A program made the position numbers and the translations under genes. DNA of 34,128 bases from Belnapia moabensis DSM 16746. Lineage in GTDB: Bacteria > Pseudomonadota > Alphaproteobacteria > Acetobacterales > Acetobacteraceae. The notes under the pieces are model-generated. The model was given only the letters and a program-made list of their open reading frames with translations, was not told the origin of the DNA and ran no database searches. This document shows, one piece after another, positions 4,840-30,521 of the stretch. Each line of letters opens with the position of its first letter. The first letter of the stretch is position 1. Location: contig NZ_KN050758.1 in assembly GCF_000745835.1 (NCBI RefSeq), positions 12,141 through 46,268 of the forward strand. The letters are read 5' to 3'.

Positions 4840-6141
4840 CTATCGCTTTGACAGATCGTCCGCCTCGAGCGCGGCCCGAATCTGCGATGCGCTTACCCCG
4901 AAATTCTCTGCCGAAAGTGCTCGCCGATAAGCGTCGATATTTCCACTGTGCATAGGGCGAGCGTCGCCGCAGCAAACGTGAAGACCGACGACCTGCCAAT
5001 CGCCGTGCTGGTCTTGCCGCAAGATCGGAGCGCCAGACGTGCCTTTTCCAGAGCTGCAACGGTGAAGCAGGAGTGGTGTTCCAGCTAAGCTCCGCCCTTC
5101 ACACTGTGCGGCGACACGTTGAACGTCCCCCCAAGGATGCTGGACAAGCCAGACTGGGCCGCCTGCTGACGAAGGTAGATCAGATCCGACCGCCAATCGC
5201 GTCCTGTCTGCAGCATCTTTCAGCCGAATGGATTTCGGGTCCACGCGTAGCAGCGCAAAGTCCGCAGCGTCATGCACTTGAGCTCCTTCCCGAGCCTCGT
5301 CCGTCACCCTGGATTGCCCGTCTACGGTCATTACCCAAATCGGTCGAGGATCCTTGACATAGGCAATCTCTACGCAATGCACTGCGTGAGTTCCCGTATC
5401 GTCAAACGCAGTATCGATATAGTCAAACAGAATTCCGATCCGGCTGCAGGCCGTCCGCTGCCAGCCCGTAGGCCGATCGGGAGGAATCAAGCCGCGGACG
5501 CAATGCGCCGCCGTGGCCAATATTTCCGAGCTGATCAAAAATCCTGTGCACGCAAAGGTGCCGGCAGGCTCAGCAATCTGCACCATTGCAACCGCGCGAG
5601 ACGCAGTGACTATGGAGCGACTAGCCGGATCCACGGCGGCCGCAAGCAGGCTTACCCGCGTTAAGCCGGACGCAAGCTGTTGGGGCGCGTCGGGCGGCGG
5701 GAGCGGCACGAGGGCGCGCGAGATTACTACGCGGCCCGAAACACCGGGATTACCACGAAGCCGAACACGGACTGCACGAGCCGCCAAGGGAACAGTACGC
5801 ATCGCGTCACTGCTCTGACCACGAGTGAAGGCGATCGAATCTAGCAGCGTGCCGTTGATTGAATCGATAAAATCGAGTTCTACAGTAGCATCAATCTTCT
5901 CCGCGTATGCTTCGAGGACTACATATCTACGCGGGTTATTGGAAATCACGACGGGGGACAGATCAAATATACGATCATTGTTAACGAACCATGAGCCGTT
6001 GCGGAAGTCTAGGTGACGTAATCCGGAACCTAAATCTTCTAGGTGCCTCGCCTCGGGCGAGATGGGCATGCACGGCGCTGCCGAACATGTCCATAGATAG
6101 CAAACCAAGGCCACAAATAAGTTTTGGATCGTTTGCCTCAC
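4840..6141 (-). CDS. Secreted V8/trypsin-like serine protease
   Basis: The chosen start is the GTG at 6141. It overlaps the TGA of the upstream subtilase gene as GTGA and has GGAGG eight bases before it; an earlier ATG at 6222 would cause an 84-base overlap. The 433-residue product has a hydrophobic export signal (residues 6-22) and about 170 residues of unknown, beta-rich N-terminal domain. A chymotrypsin-fold domain follows with H213 (LATAAHCV), D294 (DAADFALLRV) and S369 (GKGTSGAP). The GTSGAP serine motif is that of glutamyl-endopeptidase/V8-like or 'trypsin_2' enzymes rather than GDSGGP trypsins, so specificity cannot be read. Translational coupling implies expression in step with the subtilase. 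Confidence 0.87.
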   Translation of the reverse strand: MRQTIQNLFVALVCYLWTCSAAPCMPISPEARHLEDLGSGLRHLDFRNGSWFVNNDRIFDLSPVVISNNPRRYVVLEAYAEKIDATVELDFIDSINGTLLDSIAFTRGQSSDAMRTVPLAARAVRVRLRGNPGVSGRVVISRALVPLPPPDAPQQLASGLTRVSLLAAAVDPASRSIVTASRAVAMVQIAEPAGTFACTGFLISSEILATAAHCVRGLIPPDRPTGWQRTACSRIGILFDYIDTAFDDTGTHAVHCVEIAYVKDPRPIWVMTVDGQSRVTDEAREGAQVHDAADFALLRVDPKSIRLKDAADRTRLAVGSDLPSSAGGPVWLVQHPWGDVQRVAAQCEGRSLAGTPLLLHRCSSGKGTSGAPILRQDQHGDWQVVGLHVCCGDARPMHSGNIDAYRRALSAENFGVSASQIRAALEADDLSKR

Positions 6142-8747
6142 GGAGTACACCTCCAGGAGCACCGAGTGAAGTTGTCGAGCTGTCCCAAGCTGGCCTGAAA
6201 CCCAGAGGCCGGCCCAGGCCAACCCGCGGACACTTGGCAGCGCAACGGAAGGCGGACCAGTGATGCATCGACCAGCTTGATAACTAGTGCGTCTCCGGGC
6301 TTCGCCCGTACAATGGCCTCATAGACACTCCCTTGGATGCGGCGAAGCCGCTGCACGTATCTGAATGGCAACTCGTTAAGACCGTTGCCTCCTGCTTCGG
6401 GCAGAGTAATTCCCTGCGACCGGCTATTGTCCAATACGATGCGTCCTCCGGCATTCTCGCAAAGTGTCGTAAGCGCCTGCTCTGGCGACGGAGGATCAGA
6501 CGGATTGCCTTCTGCTAACTCTATGCGGTCGCGCTGGAGGTCCAAGGCGCGTGTCGCGTTGATCCGCCCAAACTTGGCGTAGTTGCTGTCGAGCCGGTCG
6601 GCCGTGAAGCGTATACGATCCGCGACAAGGTTTGCTGCCGCCTCGTCTAGACGGAGCCCGAGTTCCACAGTCTTGGCCACTATCTGAGCTGCCAAGGCGG
6701 TCACATAAGGTGCAGCAAATGAGCTTCCCCACATCATGACTTGCCCCGAACCCGCCCCGTCGGAGCCGATACCGATCCCGACTGCGCCAACATCGAAAGC
6801 TGGTCCGTACAGGACAAGTGGCTCATTCTCCGCTGATCTATCTCCGTCCACGGTGGCCGGGCAGAACTCGGAAATTGCCTCTGGGCTTTGAGTGCGTCCA
6901 GGCCACGCTTGGATCAACGTCTGAATATGCGTGCAGCGCAGGATATCCTTCCCCTCCGGGGCCAAGCCCACGACGGATATAAAGCCCGCCGTCTCCGAAC
7001 GGCGCGAAAGCGATGCATAGCCGGATGGCTCATCCATGGGTGTGTCAGGCTGTGACGGATCGTTTCTCCGGCTTCGGTTCCCAGCTGCGACGGCGACAAC
7101 GAAAGGCGCGAGTTGAGCCGGCTGCCCGCTTGTGGGTCTACCAGCGATCAACCACAGGAACTGCTGTACCTGCTCCAACGACGTAGGTGCGCAAGATAGA
7201 TTCGCGACGCGCGGAGCGTGGAGCGGCCGTATGATACTCCTAGCGTCGGCGACATTGCTCATCAGCCAATCTAGAGACTTTACTGGGTCGGCATCTCGAT
7301 CGCGGACGATACGACGCGAGTCCCACACATGGCTCCAAACCCGCGAGTTCGGCACCAACCCGTTTCTTGAATGGACCAGCATCTCGGCAATGACCGTGCC
7401 ATGGTCGTTTGGTACCGCGGCGTCCCCACAAGGCCCCAAAGGGGATCTGCCATAGCGGGGAGGAAAACGATCCAGCCACGCTACTGCGTTACCTGCTACC
7501 AGTTCGTGCTGATCTTGGCGCGTTTCAGCCTCGCTTCTGTATTGCCATTTCGGCGCAGCATCTATCGGTCGCTCAAGACCTGAGCGGTTCCGGGTAACCT
7601 CACCATCCCAAACTCCTATCAGCCGCGCTCCGCTTGGGGGCTGGGCGTCAGGAAAGCGCATTGTACTGCGTAAGGCTGCTATCTGGCTGCCAACAGCATC
7701 TTGAGAGATTGGAATCTGCGCTAGGAACTGCGCTCGGTCACCAGCGTGCAACGAAGCCCGAATGGACTCGCGGCAGGACGTAAAGATGTTGCCGGTCGGT
7801 CCGTCACCCGGGCCGAGGTGGGGCCTCGCCCGACGTAGCTCGGCGTTGCCCGCGCGCACCGCTGCCTCGATCGACGAGCAACGGTCGTCTGCGTTAATTT
7901 TCTCGCTGACGGGGGCGACGGCCACGGATAGGAGTGCGGCCGGGAGAGCGACGACACCGGAGAGTTCTTCCCACCAACGTTCACCGTCGCCCACCTCAGC
8001 AGGTGCGAAAAGGTCGCTTTTCTGTGCGCGGAGCCACGCTTGGGGTTGGCGCGGATTTCTCTCAAGAATTCTTATCTGACAAACATGATCAAAGGTCTCA
8101 CACCCCCGCGTAATTCGAGTCACGATAGTCGGAATCCTAATACTCTCTTTCGGGTCAGTGAAACGTCTGGTAATAATGGTAATATTTTGGGTAATGGTGA
8201 CGTCTGGAATGCAAATAAAATTACGCTGATTGTTTGCTGCCGCTTTGCTCTTGTCCATGCAGGCGTCGGCTGGCGGTGGTTGCTTGGGATCTAAAGTCCA
8301 TCGCCAGACAGGGCGCCCGTTGGGTTTGCTACGCTCACAGACGTGGGAATTTACCGGCTCGCACAATGCATCTGAAAGCTGCGACAAATCGAACCAACTA
8401 GGCAGACCGTACCGATCTCGAAGCAGTACGCCAGGAACTTCGCTACGCAGTACAAGTTCTGGCCGGAGTGGGACAGCTTTGTTGCGCGCTAGATGCAACA
8501 GGGCGGCAGCGAGAGGTATGGAAGCGTCGCCACCTACGACACTAAAGCCGAGATCGATGGGTTGCGGCTCCTCCTGCGTAGTTTGGGCAGCCGCCGGTAT
8601 CGAAGTGCCAGCCGCGAACAGAAGCGCAACTGCAGTCACCAAAATGCGGCTCTGCTGCAAAACACGTTTCTCAAGAATATTTCCGCCAAAAAATTTTGGA
8701 AATACTCGCATTGTCCTAGGCTCCACAATTAGTGCCGTGAGGAACAT
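6138..8747 (-). CDS. Large secreted subtilisin-like serine protease (S8)
   Basis: An 869-residue protein with a signal peptide around residues 30-55 (ending PAAAQ). About 310 residues of cysteine-containing N-terminal region have no recognised domain. The subtilase core carries D381 (IGVWDGE), H449 (NDHGTVIAEML), N557 (VAVAAGN, oxyanion hole) and S676 (GSSFAAPYVTALAA). The usual GTS is GSS here. A C-terminal ~150 residues may be a substrate or pro-domain. ATG 8747 has a GAAGG site; a second ATG at residue 13 is also possible. It is the first gene of the protease run and ends in a four-base GTGA overlap with the V8-like protease. Low GC and IS remnants upstream suggest horizontal arrival. Confidence 0.88.
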   Translation of the reverse strand: MFLTALIVEPRTMRVFPKFFGGNILEKRVLQQSRILVTAVALLFAAGTSIPAAAQTTQEEPQPIDLGFSVVGGDASIPLAAALLHLARNKAVPLRPELVLRSEVPGVLLRDRYGLPSWFDLSQLSDALCEPVNSHVCERSKPNGRPVWRWTLDPKQPPPADACMDKSKAAANNQRNFICIPDVTITQNITIITRRFTDPKESIRIPTIVTRITRGCETFDHVCQIRILERNPRQPQAWLRAQKSDLFAPAEVGDGERWWEELSGVVALPAALLSVAVAPVSEKINADDRCSSIEAAVRAGNAELRRARPHLGPGDGPTGNIFTSCRESIRASLHAGDRAQFLAQIPISQDAVGSQIAALRSTMRFPDAQPPSGARLIGVWDGEVTRNRSGLERPIDAAPKWQYRSEAETRQDQHELVAGNAVAWLDRFPPRYGRSPLGPCGDAAVPNDHGTVIAEMLVHSRNGLVPNSRVWSHVWDSRRIVRDRDADPVKSLDWLMSNVADARSIIRPLHAPRVANLSCAPTSLEQVQQFLWLIAGRPTSGQPAQLAPFVVAVAAGNRSRRNDPSQPDTPMDEPSGYASLSRRSETAGFISVVGLAPEGKDILRCTHIQTLIQAWPGRTQSPEAISEFCPATVDGDRSAENEPLVLYGPAFDVGAVGIGIGSDGAGSGQVMMWGSSFAAPYVTALAAQIVAKTVELGLRLDEAAANLVADRIRFTADRLDSNYAKFGRINATRALDLQRDRIELAEGNPSDPPSPEQALTTLCENAGGRIVLDNSRSQGITLPEAGGNGLNELPFRYVQRLRRIQGSVYEAIVRAKPGDALVIKLVDASLVRLPLRCQVSAGWPGPASGFQASLGQLDNFTRCSWRCTP

Positions 8748-9737: not shown

Positions 9738-10814
9738 CTAACCGGTCTGCTTCGACGTGCTGAGCGCGACGATGCTGTCGCGCTCGGGGTTGAGGGTGAC
9801 GGCGCCGATCGGGGTCCAGTTGCGGGTCGGCCCGCTCCAGCGGCGAGGATTGGCCTCGCGGGCCTGCTGGTACAGCGCGTGACGGGCGGCCAGGATGGGC
9901 CGGTCCTCGGTGGTATGGCGCTGGGCCGGGGTGACGTAGCGGATGCCGCTGTGACGATGGTCATGGTTGTACCAGTGCACAAAAGCGGCCGCCCACTGCC
10001 GCGCCTCGGCGAGGTCGGCAAAGCCCGCGGCGGGGAAGTCGGGGCGGTACTTGGCGGTGCGGAACAGCGCCTCGGCATAGGAGTTGTCGTCGCTGACCCG
10101 GGGCCTGGAGTGCGAGGGCGCGATGCCAAGCCAATGCAGCATGGCCAGCACGGTGGTGCCCTTCATGCTCGGGCCGTTGTCGCCGTGCAGCACCGGACGC
10201 TGCGCACGGGCATGGATGCCCTCGGCCAGCGCGGTGCGGCGGACCAGATGCGCGGCGTGCTCGGCCTGGTCGGTCTCATGCACCTCGTGGCCGACGATCT
10301 TGCGGCTGAACAGGTCGAGGATGAGGAACAGGTAGAACCAGCGGCCCTGCACCCGGGCCCGCAGGAAGGTCACATCCCAACACCAGACCTGCCCAGGAGC
10401 AGTGGCCACATGCGTGCTGGGTGGCCCTGCGGTCCGCGGTGGGCGAGCCCGGCCGCGGTGCCGCATCTGACCATGGTCACGCAGCACGCGATGGAAGCTG
10501 GCCTCGCTGGCGACATAGATGCCCTCGTCGGCCAGCACCGGGACGAGCCGGGTCGGCGGTGTGCTGGCGAAGCGCGGCTGGTTGGCCAGCTCGACGATGC
10601 GCGCCCGCTCTGCCTCGCTGAGCGCATGTGCCGGCCGTGACCGGACGGCCTCGGGCCGGCGGTCGGCCCGGACCTGGCCGTCCTCGGCACGCCAGCGCTG
10701 GACGGTGCGCTGGTCGATGCCGGCCAAGGCACAGGCCCGGGCCAGCCGGGCACCGGCGGCGCAGGCCGCCGTGATCTCAGCCATGAGGGTCTGGCGGTCC
10801 TCCAGGCGGGTCAT
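9738..10814 (-). CDS. IS3-family transposase OrfB (DDE integrase domain)
   Basis: A 358-residue frame carrying the rve-type catalytic core. A short helical HTH_21-like N-terminus (about residues 60-115) precedes D147 (WCWDVTFL), D212 (LHGDNGPSMKG) and E248 (SYAEALFRTAKYRP). The last two are 35 residues apart, the classic DD(35)E spacing. Its ATG overlaps the TGA of orfA as ATGA. The frame is also open back to an A7 slippery run in orfA, so an OrfAB fusion made by -1 frameshifting is possible. No stops or indels are seen, so it looks functional. Confidence 0.92.
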   Translation of the reverse strand: MTRLEDRQTLMAEITAACAAGARLARACALAGIDQRTVQRWRAEDGQVRADRRPEAVRSRPAHALSEAERARIVELANQPRFASTPPTRLVPVLADEGIYVASEASFHRVLRDHGQMRHRGRARPPRTAGPPSTHVATAPGQVWCWDVTFLRARVQGRWFYLFLILDLFSRKIVGHEVHETDQAEHAAHLVRRTALAEGIHARAQRPVLHGDNGPSMKGTTVLAMLHWLGIAPSHSRPRVSDDNSYAEALFRTAKYRPDFPAAGFADLAEARQWAAAFVHWYNHDHRHSGIRYVTPAQRHTTEDRPILAARHALYQQAREANPRRWSGPTRNWTPIGAVTLNPERDSIVALSTSKQTG

Positions 10815-11287
10815 TCGTCCTCGCCGTCGCGGAAGACCGCATCCAGTTTTTTTCGCAGCACCAGCAAGGCGGCCGTTTCGGCCAGGGCCTTGTCCTTGCG
10901 GTGCAACTCGCGCTCGAGCTCCTTGACCCGCCGCCGGTCCTGCCGCGCCTCGACGGCGCTGGCCGCTCGCGGCTCGCCGAGGCCGGCAATCGCATCATGC
11001 TTCCAGGCCTCCAGCTCAGCGGGGTAGAGGCCCTGCTCGCGGCACCAGGCACTGCGGGCAGCCTCGTCCATCGTCGCCGTGGTGATCACCGCCTCCAGCC
11101 GCGCCGCCGGCGTCCAGCGCTGGTTGTTCGTCAGCTTACCAGGTGCGGCCAGCGCCTGAGCTCGCCAGCGCTCCAGCGTGCCGACGCTGACCCCCACCTC
11201 GCGGGACACCAGATCGATCGCCGCGCTCTCCGGTGGCAGCAGCCGCGCTACGATGCGGTCCCTGAAGGCTTGTCCGTATCTCGCCAT
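10811..11287 (-). CDS. IS3-family OrfA (DNA-binding subunit)
   Basis: A 158-residue helical protein that would bind the ends of the element. Residues 1-50 hold a helix-turn-helix with the usual VSREVGVSVGTLERWRAQAL pattern. A second helical region and a C-terminal coiled-coil/leucine-zipper segment (RRVKELERELHRKDKALAET) match the IS3 OrfA plan. The coding sequence contains A7 at 10847-10853, 11 codons before its stop, positioned to let ribosomes slip into the orfB frame. Confidence 0.88.
   Translation of the reverse strand: MARYGQAFRDRIVARLLPPESAAIDLVSREVGVSVGTLERWRAQALAAPGKLTNNQRWTPAARLEAVITTATMDEAARSAWCREQGLYPAELEAWKHDAIAGLGEPRAASAVEARQDRRRVKELERELHRKDKALAETAALLVLRKKLDAVFRDGEDE
10847..10853 (-). 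promoter_or_regulatory. Candidate -1 programmed frameshift site (A7)
   Basis: In the orfA frame the run is read CGA AAA AAA CTG, giving the slippery heptamer A-AAA-AAA. Slipping back one base puts the ribosome in the orfB frame, which has no stop before the orfB ATG. This is the standard IS3 arrangement for making OrfAB. A stimulatory hairpin was not established by eye. Confidence 0.7.
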
Positions 11288-13876: not shown

Positions 13877-15457
13877 TCAGCCAACCGTGGCGACGCGCGT
13901 GAACCAGACAAGTGGGGCTCCCGCGCCGGGCCGTACACCCAGCCTGTCGATACGGCCATCGAGGTCGTAGGCGAACATGATCCGCGCGTCCGATAGCGCC
14001 GGCGGATCGTCGGCCACCAGGAACACGTCGTGGTGCAGCGGCCGGAGCGGCCGCTCCTGGCCATTCAGCACGAAGGCAAGCCGCCCGCGCGTCCGGCCGC
14101 GGGTGATCGCGATATCTCCGTAGCCTGGATGAGCGTAGCGGCCGACATACTCCTTCATGGGATGTGACGGCGGCGGTCGCCGCGGCTGACACGGTGCGTC
14201 TGGCGGAGCCGCGGGATTCCCGGCGGGCGCTCGCTCCAGTGGTGACCGGGGCGCCGCCGTTGAGGCGATCTCGTCGAACCACCGCTCCGGCGACTCACCC
14301 AGCAGCAGGTCGCGCAGCACGGCTGCGGCAATGTGAGGCACTGGGTTCTCGTCCCCCAGGTTGCTCAAAGCGACGCAGCCGATGCCGGCGTGGGGCAGGA
14401 GGGACAGCACGGCATGGAAGCCGTCGAAGCTGCCGGTGTGCGTCACGATCTTGCCGCCCAGGTGGCTCGAGACGAAAAAGCCAAGGCCGTGAGCGAGAGG
14501 CGCGGAGGCCTCGGCCAGGCCGGGCGCCTCCACGAGAATCTGCGCGCGATGCAAATCGCCGAGGACGGCGCCGCTCAGCACCCGCCTGCCCTCATGCACG
14601 CCCCCTGAGAGGTGGAAGCGGAGGAAGACGAGCATGTCGTCTAGGCAGGAGACCATGCCACCCACTGGATCTAGGCCGTCCTCCATCGAGCGCCACGGCA
14701 CGCGGCGCCGCGCGCCGCGGCCGCAGCGTGCCGCGAGATGGGGCGTCGCCGCCATCCCGTCGAGCGCTGCCGGTGCGAGGTCGCGGAGAAAGCTCGTGGC
14801 CTGCAGCCCGAGCGGCCTGAGGACCTCGCGCATCACGAGCTCGGGCCAGGGGAGGCCGGCGACACGGCTGGCGGCGACGGCCGCTACAGCAAAGGCCATG
14901 TTCTGGTATTGCCAGCGGCTGCGGAATGGAGCGGTCGGCGCAATGGCGCGCAGCCGCTCCGGGATGTCACGCAGGGTTGGACCGCGGCCGTACCAGGTCA
15001 ATTCGTGCTCCGGCAGGCCGGTCCGGTGCGAGAGCAGGTCACGCAGCGTCGCCTCGGCGCCGGCGATCGGGTCTTGTAGGCGAAATTCTGGCAGGTATCG
15101 CCAGACCGGCACGTCCCAGGAGAGGAGCCCCGCCTCCACCAGCCTAGCGATGGTTGTCGCCGTGAAAGGCTTAGTCAGCGAGCCGATAGCGAAGCGCGTC
15201 CGCGGCGTGACCGCGTCGTGCACCGACGCGTCGCGGCGGCCGTAGCATAGGGCGTGGACGACCCCCTCCTCGGCAACAGCGCCGACCGCGAGCCCAGGAA
15301 CGCGCCAACGGCGCATGGCGCGCTTGATCAGGGTGGCGGAACGCATCTGCCAATTCGGACCTGCCATGACCCGCGCGAAGGCCTCCTCCACCCATGCCCT
15401 CGTCCCATTCGGGCCGGCGATAAGAGCGGCGGCCGCGCCGCAAGCCCCTGCGGCCAC
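13877..15457 (-). CDS. Serine hydrolase of the beta-lactamase/S12 family with C-terminal lipocalin-like domain
   Basis: A 526-residue penicillin-binding-fold hydrolase. S93-x-x-K96 (IGSLTKP), Y184-x-N186 (YQN) and H340-T341-G342 (THTGSFDGF) are the three active-site motifs. The HTG variant is common in esterase/D-aminopeptidase relatives of class C beta-lactamases. Residues ~430-526 (KEYVGRYAHPGYGDIAI onward) resemble the DUF3471-type barrel that follows S12 peptidases such as Pab87. No convincing signal peptide or membrane helix is seen, unlike ClbP-type prodrug peptidases. GTG 15457 lacks a clear ribosome-binding site; Met-31 or Met-38 could be the true start. Placement next to an NRPS operon whose first module epimerises its residue makes hydrolysis of a D-residue-containing peptide a reasonable hypothesis. 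Confidence 0.88.
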   Translation of the reverse strand: MAAGACGAAAALIAGPNGTRAWVEEAFARVMAGPNWQMRSATLIKRAMRRWRVPGLAVGAVAEEGVVHALCYGRRDASVHDAVTPRTRFAIGSLTKPFTATTIARLVEAGLLSWDVPVWRYLPEFRLQDPIAGAEATLRDLLSHRTGLPEHELTWYGRGPTLRDIPERLRAIAPTAPFRSRWQYQNMAFAVAAVAASRVAGLPWPELVMREVLRPLGLQATSFLRDLAPAALDGMAATPHLAARCGRGARRRVPWRSMEDGLDPVGGMVSCLDDMLVFLRFHLSGGVHEGRRVLSGAVLGDLHRAQILVEAPGLAEASAPLAHGLGFFVSSHLGGKIVTHTGSFDGFHAVLSLLPHAGIGCVALSNLGDENPVPHIAAAVLRDLLLGESPERWFDEIASTAAPRSPLERAPAGNPAAPPDAPCQPRRPPPSHPMKEYVGRYAHPGYGDIAITRGRTRGRLAFVLNGQERPLRPLHHDVFLVADDPPALSDARIMFAYDLDGRIDRLGVRPGAGAPLVWFTRVATVG

Positions 15458-15627
15458 GTCAGATGGAGGGCAGGTCTAACCAAGTCCATCGGCGGCCCGT
15501 CATGCCGACATCGCGACCGCTTCGCTTACAGAGCGCTCACAATTGTATGGCTTGCCGAGCCTCCGCAAGCATAGAGTTTGCACCGGCAACCAAGCATAGA
15601 ATGTGCACCGGCAACGGAGGTCGCTTC
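15458..15627 (+). promoter_or_regulatory. Divergent promoter/leader region of the biosynthetic operon
   Basis: These 170 bases separate the minus-strand serine hydrolase from the plus-strand operon and must hold the promoter for at least the latter. The downstream half is a two-unit tandem repeat ending directly at the GGAGG ribosome-binding site (15616-15620) of the first gene. I cannot name a confident -35/-10 pair. Confidence 0.55.
15566..15615 (+). repeat. Two adjacent 25-bp direct repeats in the operon leader
   Basis: Units at 15566-15590 and 15591-15615 abut perfectly and differ at two positions. Each begins CAAGCATAGA and ends TGCACCGGCAAC. The second unit stops one base before the ribosome-binding site, so binding of a protein or small RNA could influence translation or transcription of the operon. 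Confidence 0.85.
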
Positions 15628-16045
15628 ATGCATCCGTATTTCGACCTGTTGAGCCGTTCGGGCGAGTTGCAAGACAACACCGCGGGAAGGTATCGTGAGT
15701 TGTGGCGCGCCTATGCTGCCGACCTGCAGCGATTTGCGGTAGATGCGCAGGGCAAGTCGCGGGATCTGTGGCAATCCTATTTTCAGGAGACCCGCGCTGC
15801 TGGGGCGGGCGACGATACCTCCGAGCGGATCGGTGCGGCGCAGACCAACTTCCAGCGCGCCTATGCGGAGCTCGAAGAGCGCTACGTGCACGCATGCAAG
15901 GAGCGCCAGCGCAGCTTCGCGTGCGATCAGTCGTCGCTCCAGGCAGAGTATGGCCAGCGCTCGATCGAAAGCTTGATGCAGTATCTCGAGGCACTCAGAA
16001 CGAGCCTAGCCCAGGGTGCCTCCAGAACGCCTACCAGTCGCGTGG

Positions 16046-16062
<17 letters not shown>
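15628..16062 (+). CDS. Small helical protein, first gene of the NRPS operon
   Basis: A 144-residue protein from ATG 15628, chosen because GGAGG lies seven bases upstream; the longer upstream frame runs through the leader repeats. It is predicted almost entirely alpha-helical, rich in Tyr, Gln, Arg and Glu with heptad-like spacing (RYRELWRAYAADLQRF, QTNFQRAYAELEERY), and has no membrane segment. The look is phasin-like or coiled-coil scaffold-like, but no family is recognised with confidence. Its stop lies 17 bases inside the NRPS1 frame, so the two are co-translated. A second helical protein of nearly the same size (146 residues) lies downstream of the NRPS genes. A structural or docking role for the assembly line is inference. 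Confidence 0.72.
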
Positions 16063-28400: not shown

Positions 28401-28826
28401 CGCGTCCTCGCCGCGCTGGACGCCCCCGCCGCTGCCCCGGCGGCGGAGGACGGCACGCCGCCGCGCGATGCCGTCGAGGAGGTCGTTAGCCGGGTCTTCG
28501 CGGACGTGCTGGGCGCGCGACGTGTCACGGTGCGGGACGATTTCTTCGCCGAGCTCGGCGGCCATTCCCTCCTGGCCGCCAGGGCCGTGGCCCGCCTGCG
28601 CGAGCTCCTCGGCGTCGAGCTGCCACTGGGCCGCCTTTTCGAGGCGCCGACGGTCGAGGCGCTTGCCCGCTCGCTCCGCGCCGAGACCGCGGATGCCGCC
28701 GAGCTCGAGATCATCGCCCGGGCGGTCATCCAGGTGCTCGACATCGGCGACGACCAGGTCGGCACGATGCTCGGCGAGGATGGCGCGCAACCCCACGCCG
28801 ACCAGCAGGATGCCAGATGTACGTGA
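25404..28826 (+). CDS. NRPS module C-A-T (NRPS3), predicted asparagine specificity
   Basis: 1140 residues from GTG 25404 (AGGAG eight bases upstream; ATG 25407 is the alternative). The N-terminal helix (LTPEARLRLLRRL) may dock. The LCL-like condensation domain has HHIIADG at 179-185. The adenylation domain (FTSGSTGRPKG from 653) gives the pocket DMTKVGEVGK starting at D699, one conservative change from known Asn codes of the DLTKxGEVGK type. Carrier domain: ELGGHSLLAAR with Ser1055. After it only ~50 residues remain. There is no thioesterase, reductase, or terminal condensation domain, so the finished chain must be released in trans or transferred to a nucleophile. The last bases overlap the next gene by ten. 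Confidence 0.93.
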   Translation: MMDIAGRVGALTPEARLRLLRRLRDRSGGDGTDCLPLVPVPRNGTDFPLSFNQERLWFLDQLTPGNPFYNLASAQVLDFAMDAAVLDHALAELARRHEALRTSFPVARGEPVQRVAAAVDLACETVALDAIAPEEREATARRRAAAFAAAPFDLARGPLLRALVARLGPHRSLFACAIHHIIADGWSVGLLMRELAALYRAFAGGGWAVLPPPPLHYVDYAVWQRGRAAAGETERELAFWKRQLDGLTTLELPTDRPRPRVQRFAGDQLPLALPERLAEAARGLATRQGTTLFVVLLAAFMALLHRYSGQEDVPVGVPVANRPRAELEEVVGFFANTLVLRGDVRGNLSFGEFVARLHHTVVEALEHQELPFSTLVAALRPNPDLSRNPLFQVSFQLVAGVPGAGAAPGAQSGALGIDRTTSIFDLSVNLWEAGKAVEGLVEFDTDLFDRATIERMAGHYLTLLETALRAPETGVGALPLMTEAERTLVLETWNATAIPVPPDGLLHGLVERQAELTPEACAVRQGPAALSFAELDATADRLAAALARRGICRGWRVGLRMRPSPGLLVAILGVLKAGGAFVPLDPAMPAVRSAAMLADCGASLLLTDGDASDPPAEAGCDVVALGDLLSATCGDGAKPDPGVGPEDVAYVMFTSGSTGRPKGVMIPHRAAVNYLAWCLATYPVSDGVGAPLCSPVSSDMSITTLFLPLLAGRTVVLLGPGHPVEELERLLAAGERFGFVKLTPSHLEALRLLSGGRVRAEATAAFVVGGEQLYGEALAPWRDQAPGVMVFNEYGPTETTVGCCVHALRTGECAPGPVPIGRPIANTRLYVLDSWGSPVPVMVPGELHIGGAGVGLGYAGRPELTAGSFVEDPFSPDPQARLYRTGDRVRWRRDGTLEYLGRFDEQLKVRGHRVEPGEIEAVLRGHGAVQDAAVIGRKLGGDMRLVAFVVPSAGLTGDAELWSASLRDHLAGRLPKHMLPGAFIPIETIPLTASGKVDRRVLAALDAPAAAPAAEDGTPPRDAVEEVVSRVFADVLGARRVTVRDDFFAELGGHSLLAARAVARLRELLGVELPLGRLFEAPTVEALARSLRAETADAAELEIIARAVIQVLDIGDDQVGTMLGEDGAQPHADQQDARCT

Positions 28827-29722
28827 CGATGGAGATCTTCTCGGGTCGGCCGAACCCGGGCTGGCGCCTAAGCCCGCAGCAGGCCCAGCAGCTCGCCGAC
28901 GGCCTAGCGGGCCGTCCCGCGCGCACCGGGGCGGCCGAGACCATTGAGCGCCTCGGCTTCCGGGGCTTCGTCGTCGAACGGGAACCAGGCGACCCGCTGC
29001 TGCCGCCTGGTGTGCTCCGGCGGCTCCGGATCGCCCCCACGCCCGCGGTGAGCGCCCTCGTCGCCGTGGAGGCGCCCGACCTCACGCGCTCGCTGCTCGA
29101 GGCCGCGGCGGCGGCCCTCGATCCTGCCGTGGTGGAGGCCGCCGCGTCCCAGGTCGCTGCTGCTGCAGCCGACCCTCCCAAGGCGGCCCCGGCGCAGCCC
29201 CGCGGCGCCGCGCGCACGCGGCGCGCCAAGCCGGAGCAACCGCCCGAGAGCGAGGCTGGCCGGAGGATCGCGGCGCTGCCGGAGGGCGTGGCCTTCGTCA
29301 GTCCCTACAGGCCGGCATTCTGGAACAGCGCGCCCGTCATCGCGACCAACAACTGCTACAACTACGCGACCAACTTCGTGTCCGGCACAGTGGCCCAGCC
29401 GGGCCGCTGGGCCGGCAGGATCTACGACGCCTTCCTCTGCGATGCCGTCCGCACCGCGGCGATCGCCGATGGCTGCCGTCCCGACCTCGACGGCGTCGCG
29501 CGCGTCGTGGCCCTGGCCGTGTGGCCGGGCTTCGACTTCCACTGGTGGCGGCTGCACCCGGACGGGATGTGGGCGCACAAGCTCGGCCTCTCGATCGCCC
29601 GCAACTTCGACAATGCGGGCCGCGTGATCGCCGGCAACCTTACCCCCGAGACCTGCGACCGACGACCCTACACGGATTTCTGCGGCTACTTCTTCGTGCC
29701 GCTCGGCGTGCAGGTGCGCTAA
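28817..29722 (+). CDS. Two-domain protein: FSGRPNPxW domain plus putative Cys/His hydrolase-like domain
   Basis: A 301-residue protein starting inside the end of NRPS3. Residues 1-~115 form a domain marked by MEIFSGRPNPGW (5-16) and LGFRGFVVE (46-54), also present as the whole of the next gene product. A low-complexity Ala/Pro/Arg linker (~115-150) follows. The C-terminal half has strongly patterned residues: NNCYNYATN with C180, FHWWRLHPDGMWAHK with H242 and H254, ARNFDNAG and YTDFCGYFFVP. The single Cys and following His resemble the spacing of papain-like or CHAP-type enzymes, but no established family is claimed. There is no signal peptide, so it probably acts in the cytosol. Position after a thioesterase-less NRPS makes product release or tailoring a testable idea. 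Confidence 0.8.
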   Translation: MYVTMEIFSGRPNPGWRLSPQQAQQLADGLAGRPARTGAAETIERLGFRGFVVEREPGDPLLPPGVLRRLRIAPTPAVSALVAVEAPDLTRSLLEAAAAALDPAVVEAAASQVAAAAADPPKAAPAQPRGAARTRRAKPEQPPESEAGRRIAALPEGVAFVSPYRPAFWNSAPVIATNNCYNYATNFVSGTVAQPGRWAGRIYDAFLCDAVRTAAIADGCRPDLDGVARVVALAVWPGFDFHWWRLHPDGMWAHKLGLSIARNFDNAGRVIAGNLTPETCDRRPYTDFCGYFFVPLGVQVR

Positions 29723-29724
29723 CC

Positions 29725-30081
29725 GTGGCGACACCGCGCCTCCGCGTCGAGCTCGACATCTTCAGCGGCCGCCCCAACCCGTCCTGGGTGCTGGACGTGG
29801 CCGAGGAGCAGGCGCTCCTCGCGCACCTTCGCCTCGGAGCGGGCTGCGAGCCGCGGTCGGACGGCCTCGGCTACCGCGGCTTCCTCGTCCGTCGGATGGA
29901 CATGTCGGCTGCGGCTGGTCCGTGGCTGCGCGTCGGGCACGGCGTCGTCATGCTCTCGGGCCCCCGCGCCGTGGCGCACCGGGATGCCGGCCGCCTGGAG
30001 GAGCACCTAATCGGGCAGGCGGTCGCGCACGGCTTCGGCCCGCTCGTCGGCGTGCCAAGTCCAACGAGGGAGGATTCGTGA
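29725..30081 (+). CDS. Stand-alone FSGRPNPxW-domain protein
   Basis: A 118-residue protein from GTG 29725, two bases after the previous stop. It carries DIFSGRPNPSW (11-21) and LGYRGFLVR (48-56) at the same spacing as the N-terminal domain of the preceding gene. A later LRVGHGVV...RLEEHL segment aligns with LRIAPTPAV...RSLLEA there. The two domains are therefore paralogous over about 110 residues. The conserved Arg-Pro-Asn-Pro-x-Trp loop suggests a binding function, but nothing identifies the ligand. Its TGA overlaps the next ATG by one base (TGATG). It is too small and compact to be an obvious enzyme; a partner or adaptor of the larger protein is possible. Confidence 0.75.
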   Translation: MATPRLRVELDIFSGRPNPSWVLDVAEEQALLAHLRLGAGCEPRSDGLGYRGFLVRRMDMSAAAGPWLRVGHGVVMLSGPRAVAHRDAGRLEEHLIGQAVAHGFGPLVGVPSPTREDS

Positions 30082-30521
30082 TGGAAGCGCCGGACGAGCC
30101 ATCCGCCTGGCTCTGGGCCACTACGGGCCCGCAGAAGGACTTCGCCTCCGCCTACGCGGAGTTCCGGCACGCGCTCACCCTCGCCTTCCCGGACCCTGAG
30201 GCGGCGCGCGCCGTCGGCGAGGCGTATAACGCCTATGCCGGCGCGCTGCAGGAACCCTGGAAGTCGGGCGACCTCGCGCGCCGCGTCGGCGAACTCGCCG
30301 ACGCCTACGCCACGAGCGTCCATGAGGCGCTCTCGGGCGCGGAGGCGCGCACCCGCATCGAGGAGGCGTTCGGCCGCTATGTCGCCGCGACCAGGGCCGC
30401 CTGGGCCGCCACGGATCCCGCCGAGGTGAAGCCCGAGCACTTGACCATGATCGCGCAGAGCATGGCCTGGATTGCCGCCATCGCCGCCGAGATCCGGCGG
30501 CGCCCCCCCGCGGGGACCTGA
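30081..30521 (+). CDS. Small helical protein, downstream of the NRPS genes
   Basis: A 146-residue protein whose ATG (30081) follows an excellent GAGGGAGG and overlaps the previous stop as TGATG. It is mostly alpha-helical and alanine-rich with regularly placed Tyr/Trp (EAYNAYAGALQEPW, ADAYATSVHEAL, FGRYVAATRAAWA), and has no membrane helix or signal. Pattern and size resemble the 144-residue protein that opens the operon, and both have a phasin-like look, though homology is not proven by eye. Being enclosed by FSGRPNPxW proteins on one side and the PPTase on the other, it clearly belongs to the pathway. The function is unknown. Confidence 0.75.
   Translation: MEAPDEPSAWLWATTGPQKDFASAYAEFRHALTLAFPDPEAARAVGEAYNAYAGALQEPWKSGDLARRVGELADAYATSVHEALSGAEARTRIEEAFGRYVAATRAAWAATDPAEVKPEHLTMIAQSMAWIAAIAAEIRRRPPAGT

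Follow-up and report, generated by a model that had tools for sequence, protein, structure and literature searches.

A patchy two-gene cassette combining a putative cysteine enzyme with two versions of one small domain, found inside an NRPS operon of Belnapia moabensis

The gene pair and its neighbours

The window analysed here is a stretch of 34,128 nucleotides from Belnapia moabensis DSM 16746. Behind the third of its NRPS genes, two small genes encode a two-domain protein, A-B, and a free-standing version of the first domain, A'. The features, with the gene that follows the pair, are:

28817-29722, + strand: gene 1, A-B protein, 301 aa, ATG start (open reading frame; 17-row family alignment A1)
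28817-29131, + strand: domain A in cis, about residues 1-105, with the FSGRPNPxW and LGFRGF motifs (hhalign of A3 against A2)
29132-29254, + strand: variable Ala/Pro-rich linker from A to B, approximate limits (alignment A1)
29255-29719, + strand: domain B, about residues 147-301 (39/39 B domains; alignment A5)
29725-30081, + strand: gene 2, stand-alone A', 118 aa, GTG start
30081-30521, + strand: small gene of no known family, sharing 1 base with the gene 2 stop; a phosphopantetheinyl transferase gene comes next

The third NRPS gene runs 10 nt into gene 1, and the GTG of gene 2 lies 2 nt past the gene 1 stop; the start at 29521 in the list of open reading frames merely marks the longest frame of gene 2, whose real call is GTG 29725. 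Among the gene 1 homologues of the 17-row alignment, the linker differs in both length and sequence. The GC3 of the pair is close to that of the NRPS genes in the window and so does not signal a recent insertion. The small gene at 30081-30521 showed no similarity to the one at 15625-16059, upstream of the NRPS genes. Elsewhere in the window, a large protein with a subtilase (S8) domain is encoded at 6141-8747 (-), and IS66-type and rve-type transposase genes lie upstream of the NRPS region (40-1314, 9741-11287 (-)).

The preliminary description of this DNA held that one domain occurs twice, once in each product, and proposed a profile comparison of the two. The domains do align: the family profiles of A (A3) and A' (A2) match with an hhalign probability of 99.6 (E 3.7e-24), and the window's own two copies share 42% identity over 55 aa in a single BLASTP comparison (E 2e-10). 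By sequence, then, A' is a paralogue of A and the two are homologous. The FSGRPNPxW motif that both gene products share exceeds chance by far, and it recurs across the family. A search of the organism's own genome with the A' profile returned only two copies, both in the window; a supposed second copy, C62, runs antisense in transposase-like DNA and was dismissed as a chance match.

No match of either half of gene 1, or of A', exceeds the cut-offs of Pfam, NCBIfam or PHROGs, and profile searches of the PDB with A/A' and with B gave no significant match to a solved structure. Matches of A/A' to RbcX and a tRNA-splicing endonuclease (E 0.3-0.9) and weak matches to Imm53, DsbD_N and SitA6 (E 0.03-0.06) were judged to be chance. 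In the literature we found no paper for the FSGRPNP or NNCYNYA motifs or for DUF7689, a text search that cannot prove absence from print.

Composition and spread of the cassette

We scanned 84,980 species genomes once for the pattern and obtained 24 loci, to which we added loci from two plasmids, one phage and one viral contig, plus two genome searches. From 40 related loci and the window we count 39 B domains, leaving out those with broken frames (L025, L030) and a partial inverted copy in L006; L012, whose A and B lie in different frames, counts among those with A, and genes were miscalled in L005, L021 and L026. The scan was queried with the full A-B protein and the Streptomyces-order search with an A-B profile, and both queries may have under-sampled B domains that lack A. 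In the window's own order, 4 of 395 genomes carry a member, one of them a broken fragment and one B alone, and five genomes of the same genus, among those listed, yielded no B. The order of Streptomyces netropsis was matched in 10 of 293 genomes, and the tree records bear nine phylum labels. The family is widespread, yet rare and patchy.

An A domain stands in cis (at either end) or next door in 37 of the 39 cases. Thirty B domains have an in-frame A at their N-terminus, and directly downstream of 18 of these lies A' (the window, L003-L005, L008-L011, L014, L017-L019, L021, L022, L026, L056, L058 and L059). The 13 A-B/A' junctions listed are tight, 12 of them spaced by -4 to 57 nt and one by 112 nt. 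In the remaining 12 of the 30, A' is absent (L006, which lies at a contig end, L007, L027, L028 and L060-L067), so it is not obligatory. L012 has A', and L015 joins the domains as B-A within one gene. Five B proteins with no A in cis (L013, L016, L020, L023, L024) all have A' next door; in L013, and in L016 by near-identical sequence, a LamG-like domain takes the place of A at the N-terminus of B. In phage L029 and in L057 the B motifs are intact but A could not be detected, and the broken L025 shows none either.

Among the 293 Streptomyces-order genomes, searches with A2 and with A-B matched the same 10: nine hold A-B, and in the tenth, G941, the match covers just an A remnant with a stop. 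Besides G941, no orphan A turned up in these genomes. No Pfam family recurs in more than two of 99 neighbouring proteins; the scan covered 99 of 153 listed neighbours, leaving out those of L005, L013, L021, L026-L030 and some other loci. As a cassette, the pair is self-contained.

Several individual loci have features of their own. The B gene of the gut phage (L029, 4261-6459) encodes a leader, a trypsin-like region just under the Pfam cut-offs and a C-terminal B; it lies one gene past the holin, and the next gene is lipoprotein-like with no detectable A. The viral contig L030 carries A-like and then B-like pieces with broken frames (5572-6481). In a WOR-3 genome, a serpin gene lies directly upstream of the A-B/A' pair (L010, 8516-9739), and in L023, where B is lipoprotein-like and accompanied by A', a C39/C70-type papain-like gene (7357-7809) lies three genes upstream of B.

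The history of the two domains was read from a tree of 56 A rows labelled as A or A'. The labels change 3 times on this tree (bootstrap 3-6) against a shuffled mean of 18.3, with 0 of 500 shuffles as low; by this measure A and A' separated long ago into two lineages. The deep splits of the tree are poorly supported. Of 53 inner branches, 20 stay open, the bootstrap did not reach convergence, and one A' clade is present in 0% of the bootstrap trees. Nearer the tips, some clades recur. Streptoalloteichus and G265, from the window's family, are starred sisters on both the A and the A' side. On both sides, again starred, a clade unites Sphingomonadaceae and Caulobacter with two Actinomycetota, Citricoccus and Pseudarthrobacter; its A version also includes Streptomyces. 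A further group joins Metabacillus and a Rhodospirillales bacterium to Pseudonocardiaceae; it is starred in A and, for three A' rows, supported at 86/83. Pairwise distances are correlated as well (A-A' 0.81 over 19 loci, B-A' 0.63 over 24, A-B 0.77 over 32; 0 of 2000 shuffles each). Thus some cross-phylum A and A' clades mirror each other, which argues that the pair moves as a unit. The sequences show joint inheritance, which does not by itself imply contact between the partners.

Conserved residues and export signals of domain B

Twelve residues are invariant in 39/39 B domains: N179, C180, Y181, P195, D218, D240, H242, R245, W252, H254, K255 and D265. The preliminary description had correctly singled out three of them, C180 in NNCYNYA, H242 in HWWR and H254 in WAHK, and had named loss of C180 and H254, in combination with a family found mostly away from biosynthetic genes, as the finding that would speak against its proposal; both residues are kept in every B. 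C180 is also the sole invariant cysteine. Other cysteines come and go in pairs across the 39 domains, in an alignment where the L057 sequence was shortened: C208 and C289 are both present in 35, one alone in 0 and neither in 4, and C267 and C281 are both present in 6, one alone in 0 and neither in 33. C157 and C220 covary imperfectly (both 26, one 4, neither 9), and the window has C220 without C157. The C208/C289 covariation suggests a disulfide and a B that acts outside the cytoplasm. We read the cysteine pattern as a free C180 nucleophile within a disulfide-bonded domain.

An invariant unpaired cysteine, standing with invariant His and Asp among disulfide-paired cysteines, fits a nucleophile better than a structural or metal-binding role. 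B is therefore probably a cysteine enzyme, a hydrolase. Papain-like Cys-His enzymes have a Cys in a helix-like context, then a His and then a third polar residue, and B has the same order. In contrast to the papain-like NlpC/P60, CHAP and transglutaminase-like enzymes, B matches none of their profiles; in fact, Pfam scans found no peptidase family at E <=1, or at E <=10 for the 24 members of A5. The activity, the hydrolase chemistry and any papain-like fold of B are putative.

One family of the databases resembles B. DUF7689 (PF24738) has NC..A and then H ... G.W..K.G in the same order and keeps the Cys, His, Trp and Lys positions, whereas it has S at the position of H254. The best Pfam score, 15.5 bits for the phage member L029, is below the 22.6-bit cut-off, and DUF7689 matched none of the 24 B domains of A5. 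Comparison by hhalign gave probabilities of 11.8, 7.9 and 6.5%, and a small DUF7689 HMM run on a set of 39 sequences scored 22.9 bits for phage L029 and 10.0 bits for L024. The kinship is suggestive only, not established. If it is real, the core pair would be C180-H242 and not C180-H254, as had been proposed before.

Export leaders, called by a hydrophobicity rule, are distributed unevenly. None of the 30 A-B proteins has one, the hydrophobic stretch of the L027 A-B protein lying solely upstream of the annotated start. Six of the eight B proteins without an N-terminal A do (L013, L015, L016, L020, L023, L029), and so do 10 of 24 A' proteins, with L056 ambiguous. Where a leader-bearing B is accompanied by A' (L013, L016, L020, L023), A' bears a leader in 4/4; in L024 the leader is absent on both. 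A partner that acts on B would require such matching. The lack of a leader on A-B, despite its disulfide-like cysteine pairs, would leave its export route unexplained.

Setting and possible function

The preliminary description took the pair to be dedicated to the NRPS, tailoring its product or releasing the peptide in place of the missing thioesterase. Parts of the setting speak for this: gene 1 overlaps the last NRPS gene, this third NRPS has no thioesterase, and the phosphopantetheinyl transferase gene is downstream. The proposed role is not borne out by the relatives. In phmmer searches with the window's condensation and adenylation domains, none of 40 related loci has a condensation domain and three have an adenylation-type domain (L022, L063, L064); these loci span 5.0-21.2 kb, and the short ones reveal fewer neighbours. 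As controls, the same queries recover the window's remaining NRPS proteins and those of two further genomes, and condensation domains occur somewhere in the genome in 11 of 20 genomes tested. The family thus lies mostly away from biosynthetic genes, which is one half of the joint finding named beforehand as speaking against the idea; the other half, loss of C180 and H254, does not hold. Beside the thioesterase-less NRPS there is also a better release candidate, a serine hydrolase of PF00144 (beta-lactamase family) with DUF3471 at 13880-15457 (-), which may release the peptide; the PF00144 superfamily includes PBP-type thioesterases. A role in the NRPS pathway would, moreover, leave A' and an export-compatible B unexplained. 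We regard it as highly improbable, and the NRPS setting of the pair looks incidental. One biosynthetic neighbourhood is poor ground for assigning the function of a gene.

We favour another reading, which argues by analogy and to which we give a probability of roughly 0.4: B would be a cysteine enzyme that A restrains in cis, and A' would restrain it in trans or give immunity. The genes would form a horizontally moving, self-contained two-gene cassette. In B, C180 would serve as nucleophile and H242 as general base, with H254, D240 or D265 as the third member, and the enzyme, carrying disulfides, would act outside the cytoplasm. The N-terminal A, attached by the variable linker, would hold B inactive in cis much as a propeptide does; A', the duplicate of A from the next gene, would bind B in trans as an inhibitor or immunity protein. 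Gene order, paralogy, the near-constant presence of A with B and the matching compartments are what would be expected of an enzyme whose cis and trans restrainers have a common origin. The 12 A-B genes without A' and the two B proteins without A count against it.

How else could the same facts be explained? The pair might be an interbacterial effector and its immunity protein, with A-B released or injected, B hitting an extracytoplasmic target such as peptidoglycan, A' conferring immunity and A serving delivery and not self-inhibition. A patchy two-gene cassette that moves between phyla, is free of conserved neighbours and often has a leader on A' and none on A-B would suit this idea. However, the partner is missing from 12 of 30 A-B genes (one at a contig end), none of 10 proteins scanned had a PADLOC match, and an immunity protein paralogous to the effector's own N-terminal domain would, to our knowledge, be unusual. 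We consider this rather unlikely, a little less so than the proposal that A and A' serve as modules for binding or targeting, perhaps by recognising a ligand on the cell surface, which guide B and compete for the ligand without inhibiting B. Modules of that kind would agree with the variable linker and with the LamG-like domain that replaces A in L013 and L016; they would not explain why B without A in cis still keeps A' next door in 5/5 loci. Finally, B might be no enzyme at all and instead a disulfide-stabilised binding domain in which C180 and H242 are structural or bind metal. The failure of B to match any known enzyme family speaks for such a domain. The unpaired Cys, invariant like its His and Asp companions, is a better fit for a nucleophile and makes it very unlikely.

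The restrained-enzyme reading has a model in known cysteine proteases. Spi, encoded beside the SpeB protease, is described in PMC2873492 as a propeptide analogue, and staphostatins are a second case of an adjacent inhibitor. As in SpeB-Spi (C10 streptopain) and staphopain-staphostatin, a small gene here lies directly beside the putative cysteine enzyme gene, and where Spi is a propeptide analogue, A' is the paralogue of A: the adjacent gene does encode a paralogue of the enzyme's N-terminal domain, with the propeptide and inhibitor roles putative. Unlike SpeB, B matches no C10 or other peptidase profile, A belongs to a leaderless protein, the family is spread over many phyla, and inhibition is proposed by analogy.

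Amidase effector/immunity pairs of the Tae/Tai type offer a second comparison, with a leaderless enzyme gene followed by the gene of an often-exported protein. In contrast to those pairs, no secretion system is evident beside the pair here, and we know of no Tae/Tai immunity protein that is a paralogue of an effector domain.

This work defines two protein domains that are unlisted so far, together with the rule that B is almost always accompanied by A. More broadly, and doubtfully for now, the pair may represent an unnamed family of disulfide-bonded cysteine enzymes in which one domain is used both as a tethered restrainer in cis and as a free, often exported inhibitor in trans, on a cross-phylum cassette open to uptake by other clusters, this NRPS operon among them. 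It is thus a test case, beyond SpeB/Spi, for whether the duplicate of an enzyme's N-terminal domain acts as a trans-inhibitor or immunity protein.
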